This document shows positions 6,876 to 25,164 of a stretch of DNA of 64,000 nt, piece by piece. How positions within the stretch are numbered: the first letter of the stretch is position 1; the number at the start of each line of letters is the position of its first letter. This DNA comes from Mucilaginibacter sp. SJ (GTDB lineage: Bacteria; Bacteroidota; Bacteroidia; Sphingobacteriales; Sphingobacteriaceae), in contig NZ_CP118631.1 in assembly GCF_028993635.1 (NCBI RefSeq), forward strand, positions 5,580,001 to 5,644,000, read 5' to 3'. The notes under the pieces are model-generated. The model saw only the letters and a program-made list of their open reading frames with translations. It was not told where the DNA came from and searched no databases. A program made the translations under genes and the position numbers.

Positions 6876-7826
6876 TTACTTCAACAATACCTTGGTAGCG
6901 CCGTAACCAAATTTTTCTTTACGGGCATCCATAAAGGTTTGTACTTTTTTATGCCTGCCCAATTGTTTGTGCAGCTCATTACGCAGTGTGCCATTGCCCG
7001 CGCCGTGTATGAAAGTAATATCAGGTAATTGATGAACAATTGCCGCATCCAATGCTTTGTGAAAATGGGCCAGCTGAATCTCCATAATCTCAGCGCTGCT
7101 TAAAAACTGGTAATCATCCCGCAGCTTTTCTATATGCAGGTCAACTTCGCTAACCGGCTTTTCCATCACTATTTTTTCGGTAGGGCTTTCAAAAAAACTT
7201 TCCTTCAGCTTTTGAGCATCAATAACCAGTTCAGGCTCGTCGAGCCTGATGAGCCAGCCAGCCTGGTTAAGCAATGGAATGTTCTTTTTAGTGGTCGAAA
7301 AATCCTTGGCCTTAAACTTTTCATGTACAGCCAACGGTGCCGGTGGTTCAACGTTTTGTTTAGTACTGAATAAAACGCTGAAAATAAGCTTTGGCCAAAC
7401 CTGCAGATCGGCCAGTTGGGCGGAGTAGATATTTTCGGTTGATTTTGGCGCGATAATCCCTGCAAATTCGCCTTTAAATACCTGTTGCTTATCTGTGGTT
7501 AAAGTAGCCAGCAACTGAAACGAAGTTTCATTGATTAAATGAAAATGAATAACAGAACTTGCCCTGGCGTCAGTAACCACACCTATATAAACGCCTTTTT
7601 TAACAAATTCACCTGGTGTTACGGGCTTTTCATCCGTTGTATTGTTACTTTTTGTTGCGCCTGCAGGTTGGTAACCATGAACGTAAGTTACTTTGCTGGC
7701 AAGTACCGGAATCTCAAAATCGTCTTCGCCGGTAACGCCTATCATTTGCTCGTCGATGATGCGGGTTACAAAACCTTCCATTTTTTCATCAACAAACCGA
7801 ACAAAATCGCCTAATTTATATTTCAT
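6876..7826 (-). CDS. DUF2027 domain protein with C-terminal Smr domain
   Basis: The N-terminal 70 residues (KLGDFVRFVDEKMEGFVTRI) match the DUF2027 start found in Bacteroidota Smr proteins. A middle beta-rich domain follows. Residues 225-316 are an Smr (MutS2 C-terminal) domain with VDLHIEKL and FIHGAGNGTLRNEL, the conserved D-x-H and H-G-x-G motifs. Smr domains are nucleases acting on DNA or on RNA in stalled ribosomes; the actual target here is unknown. The gene is convergent with the fucosidase and divergent from the DUF892 gene. Confidence 0.9.
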   Translation of the reverse strand: MKYKLGDFVRFVDEKMEGFVTRIIDEQMIGVTGEDDFEIPVLASKVTYVHGYQPAGATKSNNTTDEKPVTPGEFVKKGVYIGVVTDARASSVIHFHLINETSFQLLATLTTDKQQVFKGEFAGIIAPKSTENIYSAQLADLQVWPKLIFSVLFSTKQNVEPPAPLAVHEKFKAKDFSTTKKNIPLLNQAGWLIRLDEPELVIDAQKLKESFFESPTEKIVMEKPVSEVDLHIEKLRDDYQFLSSAEIMEIQLAHFHKALDAAIVHQLPDITFIHGAGNGTLRNELHKQLGRHKKVQTFMDARKEKFGYGATKVLLK

Positions 7827-7860
7827 AGCATTATGTTATTGCAATGCAAAGTTAATTTAT

Positions 7861-7879
7861 CCCGGCACATCTGTCCGGG
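7861..7879. other. Small hairpin in the divergent region before the DUF892 gene
   Basis: CCCGG (7861-7865) pairs with CCGGG (7875-7879), and ACA/TGT inside extend it. It lies 34 bases upstream of the DUF2027-Smr start and 102 bases upstream of the DUF892 start. It has no T-run, so it is not a terminator; an operator or leader hairpin is possible, with no further evidence. Confidence 0.3.
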
Positions 7880-7981
7880 TAATAAAACTTAGTTATTTTT
7901 AAGGTAAGTTTGATAAGCAATTGCGTGAAACAGCTTTTAAGAAATATATAAACCCTAACTATATACTTTTAACTTCATACC

Positions 7982-19077: not shown

Positions 19078-19515
19078 ATGAATCTGGTTCATAAAATTGA
19101 ACACTGGGGCGACACTCATCACCCTAAAGTTTTGGATATTGTGCGTATTGTTCTTGGCGTATTTTTACTGATGAAAGGCATAACTTTTATGGAAAATACA
19201 TCATACCTGCGAGGTATTATTACCGATCAGGATGTTATTAATGTATCGCCAGATATGCTGATGATCCTGGTATACTATGTATCATTTGCCCACATGGTTG
19301 GTGGTATACTCATAGCCATGGGTATATTAACCCGTTTGGGCTGCATTATTCAGATCCCTATATTGGTGGGCGCAGTATTTTTAACAGGGATTTTCCAGGA
19401 ACCTATCAATACCATGTTATGGCCATCAATTACAGCTCTGGCTCTGCTTATACTATTTACCATTTTAGGCTCCGGTCCATGGTCATTGGATAAAGTACTG
19501 TCGTTTAAGGGATAA
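19078..19515 (+). CDS. DoxX family membrane protein
   Basis: The 145-residue inner-membrane protein has four hydrophobic helices (about residues 19-38, 61-83, 88-108 and 117-137), with the DoxX pattern RIVLGVFLLMKG early and MGILTRLGCIIQ in the middle. DoxX relatives are linked to quinone or thiol redox balance; the substrate is unknown. The start is supported by an unusually good purine run, AAAGGAGGG, 4 bases before the ATG, which is rare in this group. It is convergent with the UBP zinc-finger gene. Confidence 0.88.
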   Translation: MNLVHKIEHWGDTHHPKVLDIVRIVLGVFLLMKGITFMENTSYLRGIITDQDVINVSPDMLMILVYYVSFAHMVGGILIAMGILTRLGCIIQIPILVGAVFLTGIFQEPINTMLWPSITALALLILFTILGSGPWSLDKVLSFKG

Positions 19516-19628: not shown

Positions 19629-19895
19629 TTAATATCCTTTAACGGCTTCATCTACATAACACCATAGCCAGCGCTCACCTGGTTCGGCAGATATAACTAC
19701 GGGATGGCCTGTAGCGTGGAAATGCTTAGTCATATGCGTATTGGGTGAACTATCGCAGCAAAGTGTAACGCCGCAGGTTTGGCAGGTACGCAGGTGCAGC
19801 CATGAACCGTGATGTTTTATGCATTCCTCACAAACGTAGCCTTTGGGCTCGGTTATGCTTTCAACAGCTTCGATGTGGGCACAGGTTTCTTCCAT
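19629..19895 (-). CDS. UBP-type zinc finger protein
   Basis: An 88-residue protein that is almost entirely a ZnF-UBP fold: CAHIEAV at the start, CEECIKHHGSWLHLRTC, TCGVTLCCDSSPNTHMTKHFHATGHPVV and a closing WLWCYVDE. In eukaryotes this domain binds ubiquitin C-termini; in bacteria it occurs as a small stand-alone protein. It starts 23 bases after the receiver-oxidoreductase gene, so it is the third gene of a kinase, receiver-oxidoreductase, UBP operon. The bacterial role is unknown. Confidence 0.9.
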   Translation of the reverse strand: MEETCAHIEAVESITEPKGYVCEECIKHHGSWLHLRTCQTCGVTLCCDSSPNTHMTKHFHATGHPVVISAEPGERWLWCYVDEAVKGY

Positions 19896-19918
19896 AGGTG
19901 TATGTAGTGATTAATAAT

Positions 19919-21580
19919 TTAAACTTCGGCAAGATATTTATGTACAAAACTTATAGCCATTGAGCCTTCGCCTACGGCAGATGCCACGCGGTTCATAGCC
20001 CCGGCACGCACATCGCCGGCCGCAAATATACCCGGGCAACTGGTTTCTAACAGGAACGGATCGCGTTTAAGCTTCCAAACTTTTCCAAAGCTTTCATAGC
20101 TGCGCAACTCACGGCCGGTTTCAATAAAGTCTTTACTGTTTTTAATAATATCCAGCTTTATCCAGTCGGTATAAGGTTTAGCGCCAATAAATATATACAA
20201 CGCGTTAGCCGTTTTAACCTCAGATTCTTTGGTTTTACAGTTTTGTATCGTAAGCTTTTCAAGGCAGTTGGTACCTTCGGCCTCAATTACCTCGGTATTT
20301 GGCATAACCTTTATATTGGGCGTATCGGCAATCTGGTTGATCAGGTAGGCAGACATAGTTGCCGTCAAATCATCCCTGCGGATAATGATATGCACGTTTT
20401 TCGCAAATTTGGAAAGGTACATAGCTGCCTGCCCTGCCGAGTTACCTCCGCCAATTACAAACACCTCTTTACCTGTACATGCCGAAGCTTCGGTAGTTGC
20501 AGCGCCATAATAAATGCCGGCCCCGGTAAAGTTATCAACACCTTTAACTTCCAGCTTGCGGTAGTCAACCCCGGTAGTAATTACTACTGTACGGCTGATG
20601 ATCTCCGGCCCGTCATCTAAAATAATAGTCTTGTAGCCATCTTTTTGTTTGATATCGCTAACAGATTGCGGTGATAAAAATTCGGCACCCAAACGCATAG
20701 CCTGGCTTATGGCGCGACGGGTAAGATCGGCACCGCTTAAGCCTGCCGGGAAACCCAGATAGTTTTCAATACGTGAGCTGGTACCGGCCTGCCCGCCCGG
20801 CGCTTTACGCTCAATCAATAAAGTTTTTAGGCCTTCAGATGAACCATAAACAGCGGCGGCTAATCCTGCCGGACCTGCACCTATAATTACCACGTCATAG
20901 ACGTCGGTAAGCTGGGTAGGATTTTTACCCATTTTATCGGCAATATCCCTTATGGTTGGTTTTGTTAAACAACTGCCATCCTCAAATATAACCATCGGCA
21001 AATCATCGGTTGTGCGGTTATTGATGGTAAGCAAACTGGCCGAATCGATATTTTTTTCGATGTCAAACCAGCGATAAGGGATCAGGTTACCGGCTAAAAA
21101 ATCTTTTATAACGTGCGATTGAGGCGAAAACTGGTAACCTACCAGCTTCATACCCACAAATTCGGGGATGTAGTGGCTGTGCCAGTCGCCAAGCAGGTCA
21201 TTAATTACCGGGTAAAGCTTTTCCTCGGGAGGATTCCATGGCTTCATCAGGTAATAATCAAGCTGCACATCGTTGATGGCTTTAATGGCGGCATCAGTAT
21301 CGGAGTAGGCGGTCAGTAGTACACGTTTAGCTTCGGGGAATACTTTTTTCGCTTTCTCCAGAAATTTAACGCCTTCCATTTCGGGCATGCGCTGATCGCA
21401 CAAAAATAAGGCGACCACCTCCGAACTGTTTTTCAGTTCAATAAGGGTATCATATGCCTCATTTGCCGATGTTGTGCTTAGTATTTTATATTCTTTGCCA
21501 TACTGCGACTTTAAATCGCGGCTTATTGACCGCAGTACCTGCGGATCATCATCTATGGAAAATATTATCGGACGGCTCAT
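19919..21580 (-). CDS. Fused response-regulator receiver/thioredoxin-reductase-like flavoprotein without CxxC
   Basis: Residues 1-125 are a receiver with the acidic pocket IDDDP, phospho-acceptor Asp62 (LCDQRMPEM), TAYSD and Lys in LMKPW. Residues about 135-215 form a glutaredoxin-like linker domain whose usual Cys positions read SPQSH. Residues 227-553 are a two-dinucleotide-fold reductase with the FAD motif VIIGAGPAGLAAAVYG, NADPH motif VIGGGNSAGQAA and closing FAAGDVR. The redox-active CxxC of thioredoxin reductase is absent: around residues 355-367 the sequence reads GAATTEASACTG. It is therefore a phosphorylation-linked NAD(P)H-flavoprotein of unknown acceptor. It lies in an operon with the upstream kinase and downstream UBP gene. 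Confidence 0.92.
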   Translation of the reverse strand: MSRPIIFSIDDDPQVLRSISRDLKSQYGKEYKILSTTSANEAYDTLIELKNSSEVVALFLCDQRMPEMEGVKFLEKAKKVFPEAKRVLLTAYSDTDAAIKAINDVQLDYYLMKPWNPPEEKLYPVINDLLGDWHSHYIPEFVGMKLVGYQFSPQSHVIKDFLAGNLIPYRWFDIEKNIDSASLLTINNRTTDDLPMVIFEDGSCLTKPTIRDIADKMGKNPTQLTDVYDVVIIGAGPAGLAAAVYGSSEGLKTLLIERKAPGGQAGTSSRIENYLGFPAGLSGADLTRRAISQAMRLGAEFLSPQSVSDIKQKDGYKTIILDDGPEIISRTVVITTGVDYRKLEVKGVDNFTGAGIYYGAATTEASACTGKEVFVIGGGNSAGQAAMYLSKFAKNVHIIIRRDDLTATMSAYLINQIADTPNIKVMPNTEVIEAEGTNCLEKLTIQNCKTKESEVKTANALYIFIGAKPYTDWIKLDIIKNSKDFIETGRELRSYESFGKVWKLKRDPFLLETSCPGIFAAGDVRAGAMNRVASAVGEGSMAISFVHKYLAEV

Positions 21581-21633
21581 AGGGTAAATATGCAGGCAAA
21601 TTAACTAATATTTTTGGTAAAATCAGTTTTTTG

Positions 21634-23052
21634 CTAACCATTTATCGGGAAGCAAACTATAAACTCGGTATGCCCTGGCCTTGATTTTACCTTTATTGAA
21701 CCGCGATGCTGCTTCACAATACGCTGCACCACTTCAAGGCCCATGCCGGTACCTTTGCCCATTTCTTTTGTGGTAAAGAACGGATCGTAGATCTGGCTGA
21801 TATTATCTTCGGGTATACCAGGCCCATCATCAATGATTCTTACTTCAACAAAGTCGTTATCTTTTTTTGTGCGGATGGTAAGCGTGCCTCTCTCATTTAT
21901 TTCCATGGCATCAAGGGCATTATCAACCAGGTTGGTCCAAACCTGGTTAAGTTCGCCGATAAGCGCTTTCACTTCGGGCAGGGTTTCATCAAACTCTTCA
22001 ATTACGGTAATATTTTCCTTCCTGATCTTGTACCCCAGCATGGTAATCGTGTTACGGATCCCTACGTGGATATCGGCATACTGCTTATCCTGCGCGCGGT
22101 CCATGTGAGTAAACGTTTTAACGGAACTTACCAATTCGGCAATACGTCGTGCAGACTCCTGGATATCTTCAATCATCTTTTCGCCCATTAGCTTGGCACT
22201 AAGCCAACCCATAATAATGGATACCGCATGTTCGGGTATATGCGCCTTCAGGGCCTCCAGGTTTTCGGTGGTAAAACTAAAGTCTACAAAGCTTTCGGCT
22301 ATATCATAGGCGTCTTCAACGCCGTTATCTTCCAGCCATTCAGATATTTCATCTTCAAGCTGGGTACGCTGTTTTAGTGTAAGGCGGGTATAGCATTCCT
22401 TTTTATTCAGGATCCTGAACAACTCGTCGGTCAAACCGTCAACCTGTTCATCACTGGCCCTTATGGCAAACATGTTTTTTAGGTGGGCAGGCACCATACG
22501 CAGGTGTTTTCTTAATGATAACGAATCGCGTACGATGGCCGATGCCGGGTTATTAAGCTCATGAGCCAAACCTGCAGATAGCTTGCCTAAAGCCATCATT
22601 TTATCGTTTTGCTGCTGCATGGCGGTAAAATCCCGTACCCGGGTGGTCATGATATGAACCAATGCCTGGGTGAGCTCAAAATGGTGTTGGATCATCTCCA
22701 TGATCTCGCCCGTAGGATAGCTCAATACGGTTAGTTCGCCAACAGCCTGAGCATAACCTTTGGCTATAAGGCCGCGCGAATAGGGCATATAACCGGTAAT
22801 GCTTCCTTTTTCAACCAGGGTATAATCACGGCGTGAGCCCTGTTGCATCATAAAGAAACGCAGATTGCCCTCCATTATAAAATGCGGGCCTGTAAGGTCC
22901 TGGCCCGGCTCCATCAGGTATTCACCATCTTCAAATGTTAAGATCTCACTTTTATCAATCAGCCACTGCAGCTGATCGTCGGGTATATTGGCCAAAGCTT
23001 CAAAAGCTTTCAAGTCTGATACGCTTACCTGTAGTTCACTTACCTTTTGCAT
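21634..23052 (-). CDS. Sensor histidine kinase with N-terminal CRP-like cyclic-nucleotide-binding fold
   Basis: Residues 12-130 form a CRP/CNB-type beta barrel (LANIPDDQLQWLIDKSEIL, EDGEYLMEPG, FIMEGNLRFF), but the phosphate-binding signature for cyclic nucleotides (GE...RxA) is not recognisable. The H-box LSAGLAHELNNPASAI follows near residue 160, and the ATPase domain near residues 345-470 has LNQVWTNLVDNALDAM, DDGPGIP and GKGTGMGLEV. There is no membrane segment, so it is cytosolic. It lies 53 bases upstream of the receiver-fused oxidoreductase, its likely phosphotransfer target. Confidence 0.92.
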   Translation of the reverse strand: MQKVSELQVSVSDLKAFEALANIPDDQLQWLIDKSEILTFEDGEYLMEPGQDLTGPHFIMEGNLRFFMMQQGSRRDYTLVEKGSITGYMPYSRGLIAKGYAQAVGELTVLSYPTGEIMEMIQHHFELTQALVHIMTTRVRDFTAMQQQNDKMMALGKLSAGLAHELNNPASAIVRDSLSLRKHLRMVPAHLKNMFAIRASDEQVDGLTDELFRILNKKECYTRLTLKQRTQLEDEISEWLEDNGVEDAYDIAESFVDFSFTTENLEALKAHIPEHAVSIIMGWLSAKLMGEKMIEDIQESARRIAELVSSVKTFTHMDRAQDKQYADIHVGIRNTITMLGYKIRKENITVIEEFDETLPEVKALIGELNQVWTNLVDNALDAMEINERGTLTIRTKKDNDFVEVRIIDDGPGIPEDNISQIYDPFFTTKEMGKGTGMGLEVVQRIVKQHRGSIKVKSRPGHTEFIVCFPING

Positions 23053-23353: not shown

Positions 23354-23356
23354 TCA
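23161..23356. repeat. MITE-like palindromic element with 13-bp terminal inverted repeats
   Basis: The ends TGAACCGGGATTT (23161-23173) and AAATCCGGGTTCA (23344-23356) are inverted copies with one mismatch. Inside, GGATT/AATCC words recur about every 9 bases in both arms. Two tight hairpins lie within: GATTCGTG/CACGAATC (23195-23214, 4-base loop) and GCGATCGTG/CACGATCGC (23249-23270, loop GAGA), the second being roughly an inverted copy of the first. The left end is preceded by a partial duplication of its own start. The right end overlaps the lytT stop codon. It has no coding capacity. Confidence 0.6.
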
Positions 23357-24097
23357 ATTCCATTTGCTCAAAAATACCCCGAAGGCTTCTTTATACTGAT
23401 CCCCAACGGTAATGTTCACTTTACCTATCTGTAAAGCGTTGCGGGTAATGGAGTTGATTTTATTGAGCGATACAATGAATGAACGATGTACACGCATAAA
23501 ACATTTGGATGGCAGTTTTTCTTCCAAAGCTTTTAAACTGGTGAGGGAAAGCAATGGTTTTTCCTTATCCTGAAGATAGATTTTTACATAATCTTTCAAA
23601 CCTTCAATGTACAAGATGTCATTAAGAGCGATCCTTACTAACTGGTATTCTATCTTTAAAAACAAGTACTCTTCCTCTTCGGGTTCAGCGGCAATTACGG
23701 TTGCAGGACTGTTCGAGCGATTCACCAGTTCAAAATAAGTTAGGGCTTTGTTTGAAGCATGCAAAAATTCTTCGTAGTTAAAGGGTTTGAGCAGGTAATC
23801 GAGGGCATCAACCCGGTAGCCTTCAATAGCAAACTGGTTGTAGGCGGTGGTGAAAATAATGCGGGGTTTATTTGCTCCGCGACTGTCAAGCACCCGTGCG
23901 AGTTCCATGCCGTTAAGGTTAGGCATCTGGATGTCCAGGAAAATAAGGTCAACCTTTTGATCCTGTAAGCCAACAAGCGCCTCAACGGCACTGCTGTAAC
24001 GGCCAATGAGTTTCAGGAAAGGGGTTTGTTCTATAAAAGCACAAACGAGGCCCAGCGCGAGTGGCTCATCATCAACAGCTATGCAGTTAATTATCAT
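23354..24097 (-). CDS. LytR/AlgR-type response regulator (receiver + LytTR)
   Basis: The 247-residue regulator has a receiver (AVDDEP, phospho-acceptor Asp55 in FLDIQMPNLNG, FTTAYNQ, LLKPF) and a C-terminal LytTR DNA-binding domain (residues 145-245, DILYIEGLKDYVKIYL, FMRVHRSFIVSLNKI). The start overlaps the stop of the sensor kinase gene by 4 bases, so the two are translationally coupled. Its own stop codon is the outermost TGA of the palindromic element's right end, which may have replaced the original C-terminus. The likely target is the divergent outer-membrane barrel gene. Confidence 0.93.
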   Translation of the reverse strand: MIINCIAVDDEPLALGLVCAFIEQTPFLKLIGRYSSAVEALVGLQDQKVDLIFLDIQMPNLNGMELARVLDSRGANKPRIIFTTAYNQFAIEGYRVDALDYLLKPFNYEEFLHASNKALTYFELVNRSNSPATVIAAEPEEEEYLFLKIEYQLVRIALNDILYIEGLKDYVKIYLQDKEKPLLSLTSLKALEEKLPSKCFMRVHRSFIVSLNKINSITRNALQIGKVNITVGDQYKEAFGVFLSKWN

Positions 24098-25164
24098 GAC
24101 AGGTTAAGGGTTAAGTGAACAGTATAGATATTGGCGGTTACATCCTCGGTAATATCCAGTTTATATTTCCCTGCATAGAGCAAATCAAGCCGGCGAATAG
24201 TATTGGTTAAACCGATACCTTTATTTTCGCCAATGTTTAGGTTATGATCTTTATAGATGCCATTCTCTACCTTTAACTCCAGCAGGTTATCATGCTGATC
24301 AATAATGATGCGGATAGCGCTTGGCTCCGTAGCGCTGATGCCGTGTTTAAAGGCGTTTTCTACAAAAGGTAAAAAAATCATCGGGGCCACGGTTACATCG
24401 TTAGTGTGTGCAGGCGGAGTAAAGGTAACGGTTACTTTTTGGGTAAGGCGCAGTTCCATAAGGCTGATATAGTCTTTAATGAAAGCTACCTCCTGGCTTA
24501 ATAATGCCGTACCATGCTGCGTATCATATAATACATACCGCATCATGCGCGAAAGCTGGTGCAATGCCTTGCGCGACGTTTCGGCATTAACATGCGTAAG
24601 CGCATAGATGTTATTAAGCGTATTGAAAAAGAAATGAGGGTTGATCTGCGCTTTCAGAAACGATAATTCGGAACTGATTTTATCCTGCTCCAGGGCCTGG
24701 CGCAGGCGGATATCCATTTGCCATTTTTGTATTGCCGTAATACTGGTACTAATACCTAAAACCAGGGCCACTATAACAGTGCCAAAAAAATCCCAGCCGC
24801 CGCGGTCCCTTGGTTTTGGCGGGCGGTGCTGCCGGTGAAAAACGGCTTCCATATGCTCATGCATATGCAGCACCTTATCGGCCCAGCTATTGAGTAGCAA
24901 AAAAACAATTACCACTCCCACAACAACTATAAAGTACATCCCTATACGGTCATGCAATAAAAATCGCGGAACCAGTAATTTACTGTTGAAGTAATAAGCA
25001 GCAACAAGTATAAAAAGGGTAACCGCCTGTTTGACCCAGAACTGGTACGGAATTTCGACATTCCAGCTAAGGGGCTGATAGAAGAACAACAGCAGGCCAA
25101 AAACTACCCATATTAAAATATGGATGAGTATGGTAATGGTGTTGCTTTTTGACTTAAGGCTCAT
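24094..25164 (-). CDS. LytS-like sensor histidine kinase
   Basis: The 356-residue protein has four membrane helices (about residues 8-28, 43-61, 76-95 and 120-142), then a coiled linker and the His_kinase domain with LKAQINPHFFFNTLNNIYAL and an ATPase part ending IGLTNTIRRLDLLYAGK. This is the short LytS/YehU form found widely in Bacteroidota. It is paired with the overlapping LytTR regulator. The stimulus is unknown. A 281-base divergent region separates it from the outer-membrane barrel gene. Confidence 0.93.
   Translation of the reverse strand: MSLKSKSNTITILIHILIWVVFGLLLFFYQPLSWNVEIPYQFWVKQAVTLFILVAAYYFNSKLLVPRFLLHDRIGMYFIVVVGVVIVFLLLNSWADKVLHMHEHMEAVFHRQHRPPKPRDRGGWDFFGTVIVALVLGISTSITAIQKWQMDIRLRQALEQDKISSELSFLKAQINPHFFFNTLNNIYALTHVNAETSRKALHQLSRMMRYVLYDTQHGTALLSQEVAFIKDYISLMELRLTQKVTVTFTPPAHTNDVTVAPMIFLPFVENAFKHGISATEPSAIRIIIDQHDNLLELKVENGIYKDHNLNIGENKGIGLTNTIRRLDLLYAGKYKLDITEDVTANIYTVHLTLNLS

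Follow-up and report, generated by a model that had tools for sequence, protein, structure and literature searches.

A three-gene locus of Mucilaginibacter sp. SJ combining a histidine kinase, a receiver-bearing thioredoxin reductase-like flavoprotein lacking CxxC and a UBP-type zinc finger: a candidate two-component system with an enzyme as output

The low-molecular-weight (low-Mr) thioredoxin reductases (TrxRs; TIGR01292; PDB 7aaw and 5mh4) are built from an FAD domain and an NAD(P)H domain, and in AhpF and the glutaredoxin-TrxR fusions a domain of redoxin fold precedes such a core. The TrxR-type fold of ferredoxin-NADP+ reductases (FNRs) works without a dithiol of the TrxR type. Here, a three-gene locus was analyzed within a 64,000-nucleotide stretch of Mucilaginibacter sp. 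SJ (NZ_CP118631.1, positions 5,580,001 to 5,644,000), hereafter the window, whose numbering is used throughout. The open reading frames lie head-to-tail on the minus strand and encode a histidine kinase (23052-21634, 472 amino acids), a flavoprotein with receiver, glutaredoxin-like and TrxR-like regions (21580-19919, 553 amino acids), and a UBP-type zinc finger (ZnF-UBP) protein (19895-19629, 88 amino acids), with the intergenic gaps of 53 and 23 bp given in an earlier sequence-only reading of this DNA. The flavoprotein core has both domains and the fold of low-Mr TrxRs, to which it is about 31-33% identical. The kinase gene adjoins that of the flavoprotein in each of the 15 same-genus loci examined, and in 11 of 15 the UBP gene does so too, implying that the layout of the trio exceeds chance; in the closest named loci the flavoprotein is 86-87% identical. 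The three-gene set is kept across phyla, as judged from a family comparison of loci and genomes, and the conserved neighborhood in Bacteroidota and beyond on which the sequence-only reading had staked itself was indeed present. We lean, with slightly more belief than doubt, towards a two-component system with an enzyme as output, in which the kinase would phosphorylate the receiver of an NAD(P)H/FAD oxidoreductase and the UBP protein would act as a zinc adaptor. This reading is carried by what sequence comparison established: an architecture that is conserved, signaling residues left intact in kinase and receiver, the loss of both dithiols, the kinase-receiver and UBP-flavoprotein associations and a kinase-UBP fusion.

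The flavoprotein begins with a receiver (residues 1-118; Pfam Response_reg, PF00072, at 6-118, above cut-off) whose predicted phospho-acceptor is D62, continues with a glutaredoxin-like domain delimited by alignments (about 141-224), which reads SPQSH where CPxC is expected, and ends in a TrxR-like FAD/NAD(P)H core (225-553; Pfam Pyr_redox_2 at 228-539, above cut-off), which reads GAAT where CAxC is expected. An alignment of 70 receiver-type sequences was assembled from Bacteroidota, Cyanobacteria, Acidobacteria, Chloroflexi, Actinobacteria, Gemmatimonadetes and others. D62, T90 and K113 are invariant in 70/70, so that the Asp, switch Thr and Lys of a two-component response regulator are all in place and the receiver is complete, as had been claimed. 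Both dinucleotide folds, likewise claimed, can be observed in the retained FAD (GxGPAG, GD) and NAD(P)H (GGGxS, R) motifs, with a conserved R401 where the NADPH motif of TrxR has its first Arg. The CxxC of TrxR is replaced by GAATTEASACTG, at the position where the genuine TrxR of the same host (G000:C1:862136-863062) has CAVC. It lies in a degenerate redox motif, YYGAATTEASAC (residues 357-368; 20477..20512, minus strand, coordinates calculated from residue numbers), in which Y358, G359 and E364 are invariant among the 70 sequences. A family-specific insertion (about residues 487-506; 20063..20122, minus strand, placed by alignment) contains W502 and R506, which are also invariant in the receiver-type set, and is missing from genuine TrxRs. 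In the glutaredoxin-like domain, the family has SPxSH at the CPxC site; the statement that this linker is free of cysteine holds for the active-site positions, which are Ser-Pro-x-Ser, and fails for the remainder, since C204 (FEDGSC) is present.

That the protein might nevertheless be an ordinary thioredoxin or glutaredoxin reductase with its redox cysteines elsewhere is suggested by its best structural and hidden Markov model matches, which are TrxRs; the AlphaFold model (mean predicted local distance difference test, pLDDT, 88.2) also returned TrxR structures as its top Foldseek matches. This idea is scarcely credible, being already contradicted by the sequence: the core CxxC occurs in 0/70 receiver-type flavoproteins, no invariant Cys column was found anywhere in the 70-sequence alignment, the TIGR01292 equivalog profile for low-Mr TrxR gave 242.8 bits against a cut-off of 343.45, and the host possesses its own TrxR with CAVC. 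The conclusion that the flavoprotein is not an ordinary thioredoxin reductase, reached earlier from the single sequence, is thus supported across the relatives. The model superposed over the full core on Lactococcus TrxR in its flavin-reducing form (5mh4; template modelling (TM) score 0.89, on target) and more poorly on the same enzyme in its flavin-oxidizing form (5mjk; TM 0.62), and the predicted 5mh4-like conformation fits a core in which no dithiol has to reach the flavin any longer.

One cysteine of the motif, C368, is left, and it could be supposed to act on low-molecular-weight thiol disulfides in the manner of bacillithiol disulfide reductases, given its retention in 59/70 receiver-type sequences and a mycothiol-dependent dehydrogenase adjoining the Tsukamurella operon. 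Such a single-cysteine disulfide reductase is nonetheless quite improbable. C368 is replaced by Tyr or Phe in 11/70 sequences and by Met or Leu in 11/11 members of a decayed-receiver clade described below, and a one-cysteine catalyst was rejected for this lack of conservation. The cysteine of the YpdA/Bdr type, which we take to lie in GGGPCG, corresponds to Ala in the flavoprotein (A238), and a catalyst of that type was rejected as well.

The history of the dithiols was followed in a FastTree phylogeny that comprised 122 members of the family and used six genuine TrxRs to place the root. CxxC is absent from 120 of them. The other two, from actinobacteria, are glutaredoxin-TrxR fusions with CPDC in the glutaredoxin domain and CATC in the core (L166:3777-5009 and L167:2678-4114, the glutaredoxin domain being detected by Pfam in the former), and they form the sister group of the 120 CxxC-less sequences with a support of 0.857. 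Since the sister branch keeps both motifs, a working fusion has probably lost both dithiols, judging from the tree and alignments, with regulatory domains gained after or alongside that loss. Eleven loci (L188-L198) form an actinobacterial clade (support 0.985) with a decayed receiver, in which D62, T90 and K113 are never all kept.

The kinase would sense its signal through an N-terminal fold of the CRP/cyclic nucleotide monophosphate (cNMP) type (residues about 1-125; Pfam cNMP_binding 26.1 bits, just under the cut-off of 27.5). A dimerization and histidine phosphotransfer (DHp) helix with H164 in AHELNNPA follows (Pfam HisKA 22.3 bits, just under the cut-off of 26.9), and HATPase_c occupies residues 367-470, above cut-off. 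Both a fold search and a profile search were run, the latter matching cNMP/PKA-R and kinase structures. In the AlphaFold model (mean pLDDT 91.9), an all-helical insertion of about 90 residues (about 187-269) stands between the two DHp helices, possibly as a docking or sensing element. H164, N378, D408, G410 and G412 are invariant in 57/57 relatives; the H-box His, the N and G boxes and HATPase_c of a histidine kinase are therefore all found. The canonical cNMP phosphate-binding cassette is not found in the window kinase, which reads GYMPYSRG; the cassette Glu occurs in 21/57 relatives and is Tyr here, and the canonical Arg, compared by eye, is out of place. The helical insertion, together with the SPxSH remnant, the CxxC-bearing sister branch and a cNMP-fused one-component form of the flavoprotein, goes beyond what had been noticed in the sequence-only reading.

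A kinase of this family is present in the flanks of 69/80 receiver-type loci, the loci having been fetched by sequence. For loci that came from genome surveys and from plasmids, the kinase adjoins the flavoprotein in 24/26 with a canonical receiver versus 0/21 with a cNMP-fused or sensor-less core (Fisher p 2e-11), and in 0/11 of the decayed-receiver clade. Some of the comparison loci were chosen from UBP or flavoprotein match lists, which affects the per-locus UBP counts and not the kinase contrast. That the kinase tracks the intact receiver and that the two form a pair is supported by these counts, in agreement with the pairing proposed earlier. Two or three tandem kinases stand beside one flavoprotein at two loci (L072, L168). 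In Deinococcus and Rhodococcus, a cNMP domain is fused straight to the flavoprotein, and it resembles the domain found at the N-terminus of this kinase family. One type of sensor thus appears, from this match, to control the core by either of two routes, directly, as a one-component protein, or through His-Asp transfer.

In the 88-residue protein, Pfam zf-UBP covers residues 22-83 (42 bits versus a cut-off of 22.7), and the nearest solved structure is 2ida (E=3.5e-27), deposited simply as a hypothetical protein. Twelve Cys/His positions are conserved in an alignment of 37 sequences (C5, H7, C22, C25, C38, C41, C46, C47, H54, H58, H64 and C79), a number and pattern consistent with three Zn sites, and C5, H7 and C79 are jointly missing from the UBP proteins of Streptomyces and Tsukamurella. 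Because the cysteines match zinc-ligand sets, one of which is lost as a unit, they look structural, which points to a zinc adaptor and not an electron carrier. The earlier suggestion that electrons flow through a cysteine-rich UBP protein was accordingly dropped as unlikely.

Its association with the flavoprotein was measured by searching the same 790 genomes with both queries, in four groups. Genomes with UBP also held the flavoprotein in 45/55 cases versus 8.4 expected (Cochran-Mantel-Haenszel z 15): 14/14 in Bacteroidia, the class of the host (296 genomes), 4/5 in Cyanobacteria (146), 21/30 in Actinobacteria (149) and 6/6 in Pseudomonadota (199). Surveys outside Bacteroidia were centered on flavoprotein-bearing genomes, and dropping the center changed little. 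Among the actinobacterial flavoprotein genomes, 2/31 hold the CxxC-bearing outgroup, and both are without UBP. A per-genus test in Bacteroidia gave 9/9 versus 20/165 (p 8e-10). In the host genome, flavoprotein and zf-UBP are each present as a single copy. An actinobacterial open reading frame joins cNMP domain, histidine kinase and UBP in one polypeptide (L175:3328-5085, minus strand; zf-UBP E 3.9e-10); it adjoins a receiver-flavoprotein, and a second, separate UBP gene lies close by (7526-7906). UBP also forms the C-terminus of Na+/H+ exchangers at four loci (L103:2634-4772, L042:2222-4258, L201:2321-4195 and L208:3977-6349), two of which have TrkA_N (Kef-like) and two none; the L103 fusion is the one of the four that adjoins a receiver-flavoprotein and kinase.

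It could be argued that UBP is a passenger which shares mobile stress islands with the flavoprotein and is functionally unlinked to it. Some plasmid loci do resemble stress islands, UBP occurs alone or fused to antiporters, and 43/88 flavoprotein genomes lack it; adding the 10 UBP genomes without a detectable flavoprotein, UBP is evidently not obligatory. We regard the passenger explanation as unlikely. In Bacteroidia, the UBP gene physically adjoins that of the flavoprotein in just 4/14 genomes and is unlinked in 10/14, so their joint occurrence is not accounted for by physical linkage; the kinase-UBP fusion exists; and the association is independent of the input domain, being seen with receiver-type, cNMP-fused and sensor-less cores alike. 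That UBP tracks the flavoprotein core as a real partner, as had been supposed earlier, is supported by this distribution. The related remark, that bacterial two-component operons seldom contain a UBP fold, holds for genomes at large; beside this flavoprotein, UBP recurs.

In the mechanism that we prefer, the soluble kinase would sense a signal through its CRP-type domain and phosphorylate D62 of the flavoprotein. Phosphorylation may then reposition two regions on the TrxR-like core, the receiver and the glutaredoxin-like domain with its dead redox site, switching electron flow from NAD(P)H to FAD on or off. With both dithiols of the glutaredoxin-TrxR ancestor gone from the core, the flavin would have to hand electrons directly to an acceptor, bypassing thioredoxin. 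The UBP protein may serve as a dedicated zinc adaptor that tethers the core to the kinase or to clients, possibly cation/proton antiporters. A bolder form, which we put forward as speculative and rather doubtful, sees here a class of signal-gated flavoenzymes: the dithiol-less fusion would be an NAD(P)H oxidoreductase of the direct-transfer type under the control of phosphorylation, which the UBP adaptor would dock to kinases as well as to cation/proton antiporters, so that redox state and ion homeostasis would be coupled.

Several points weigh against the preferred mechanism. Conservation of the flavin and NAD(P)H sites could serve sensing and not catalysis. The tree supports the CxxC-less clade moderately and the receiver clade weakly (0.548); the surveyed genomes are phylogenetically non-independent, and the p-values overstate certainty; the unpaired UBP and flavoprotein genomes have been noted above; and the match of the fused cNMP domain to the kinase sensor could be general cNMP-domain similarity. 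The first point could be developed into a redox sensor in place of an enzyme, with turnover incidental: FAD and NAD(P)H bound by the TrxR-like core would let it report the redox state of the cell and feed back through the receiver on the kinase or the partners tethered by UBP. The loss of both catalytic dithiols with the nucleotide sites kept, the existence of kinase and UBP as one polypeptide, and the loci with tandem kinases per flavoprotein would all suit such a sensor. Sensor-less cores (L037, L161, L164) and cNMP-fused cores, however, occur without a nearby kinase, implying that the core does something without a kinase partner, and the family-specific conservation of Y358, E364, W502 and R506 suggests an active site. 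A redox sensor is therefore possible in our view, though we doubt it, and the flavoenzyme output remains the preferred interpretation.

Neighbor clustering over 90 loci found, besides kinase and UBP, scattered or lineage-limited neighbors, and no third operon partner among them. LtrA (low temperature requirement A) stands near the flavoprotein/kinase pair in 7 of the 90, in distant phyla (L030, L033, L086, L091, L105, L106 and L119), and in Acidobacteria the lineage-limited neighbors are a NarL-type regulator and an aldehyde dehydrogenase. In the window, a gene pair for a LytTR response regulator and a membrane kinase of the LytS type (23354-25164, minus strand) lies directly upstream of the kinase gene; it was rejected as a member of the unit, being about 300 bp off and absent among the recurrent neighbor clusters. 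A DoxX-family membrane protein gene (19078-19515, plus strand), convergent with the UBP gene, is retained beside UBP in several close relatives (L002, L005, L044 and L045). A defense system was dismissed after PADLOC gave no match for kinase, flavoprotein or UBP protein. On a Hymenobacter plasmid (L041:4274-5215), UBP is followed by an apparent broken-up remnant of the flavoprotein. Flavoprotein and UBP occur within stress-island-like sets that include Clp chaperones, PsiE or thioredoxin (L037, L039); contexts of this kind comprise Clp ATPase and PsiE in Paraburkholderia and clpB-trxA in Rhodococcus. Together with the mycothiol-dependent dehydrogenase and the antiporter fusions, these contexts suggest, as a lead, a setting of oxidative, electrophile or ion stress.

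Unlike low-Mr TrxRs, the flavoprotein lacks CxxC, possesses the Y/G/E motif and the W502 insertion of about 18 residues, and adds the N-terminal receiver and glutaredoxin-like domains. AhpF and the redoxin-TrxR fusions are distinguished by two dithiols; these are found in the sister-branch fusions L166/L167, whereas both are replaced in the flavoprotein (SPQS and GAAT), the family having changed CPDC to SPxS and CATC to GAAT. The TrxR-type FNR (PDB 3lzw) has a TrxR-like fold and sets a precedent for FAD passing its electrons on directly, but its match is weaker (81 bits versus about 159 for TrxR) and FNRs have neither receiver nor glutaredoxin-like domain. The ZnF-UBP of HDAC6, USP5 and bacterial 2ida share profile and zinc-ligand pattern with the 88-residue protein, which differs from HDAC6 and USP5 in being a stand-alone bacterial protein with a flavoprotein partner. 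NCBI names the small protein "UBP-type zinc finger domain-containing protein" and the flavoprotein family "FAD-dependent oxidoreductase" or "cyclic nucleotide-binding domain-containing thioredoxin-disulfide reductase". Proteins bearing the last name have the same glutaredoxin-like domain and CxxC-less core, sometimes with a UBP neighbor, but their sensor is fused directly, without kinase or receiver. In the open-access literature, neither the trio nor the fused proteins were found described, and the term "cyclic nucleotide" is absent from an article on Deinococcus thiol reductases (PMC8945050). The parts are thus already annotated in databases, and the assembly is apparently undescribed. These comparisons indicate that family names such as "thioredoxin-disulfide reductase" are wrong on the chemistry, give a bacterial ZnF-UBP protein a genomic context and a partner, and add a rare response regulator whose output would be a flavoenzyme. 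With three genes in many phyla, the destination of the electrons and the target of the zinc finger become directly testable. Among known systems, the assembly is best classed as a two-component system with a putative enzymatic output, combined with a CxxC-less TrxR-like flavoprotein.

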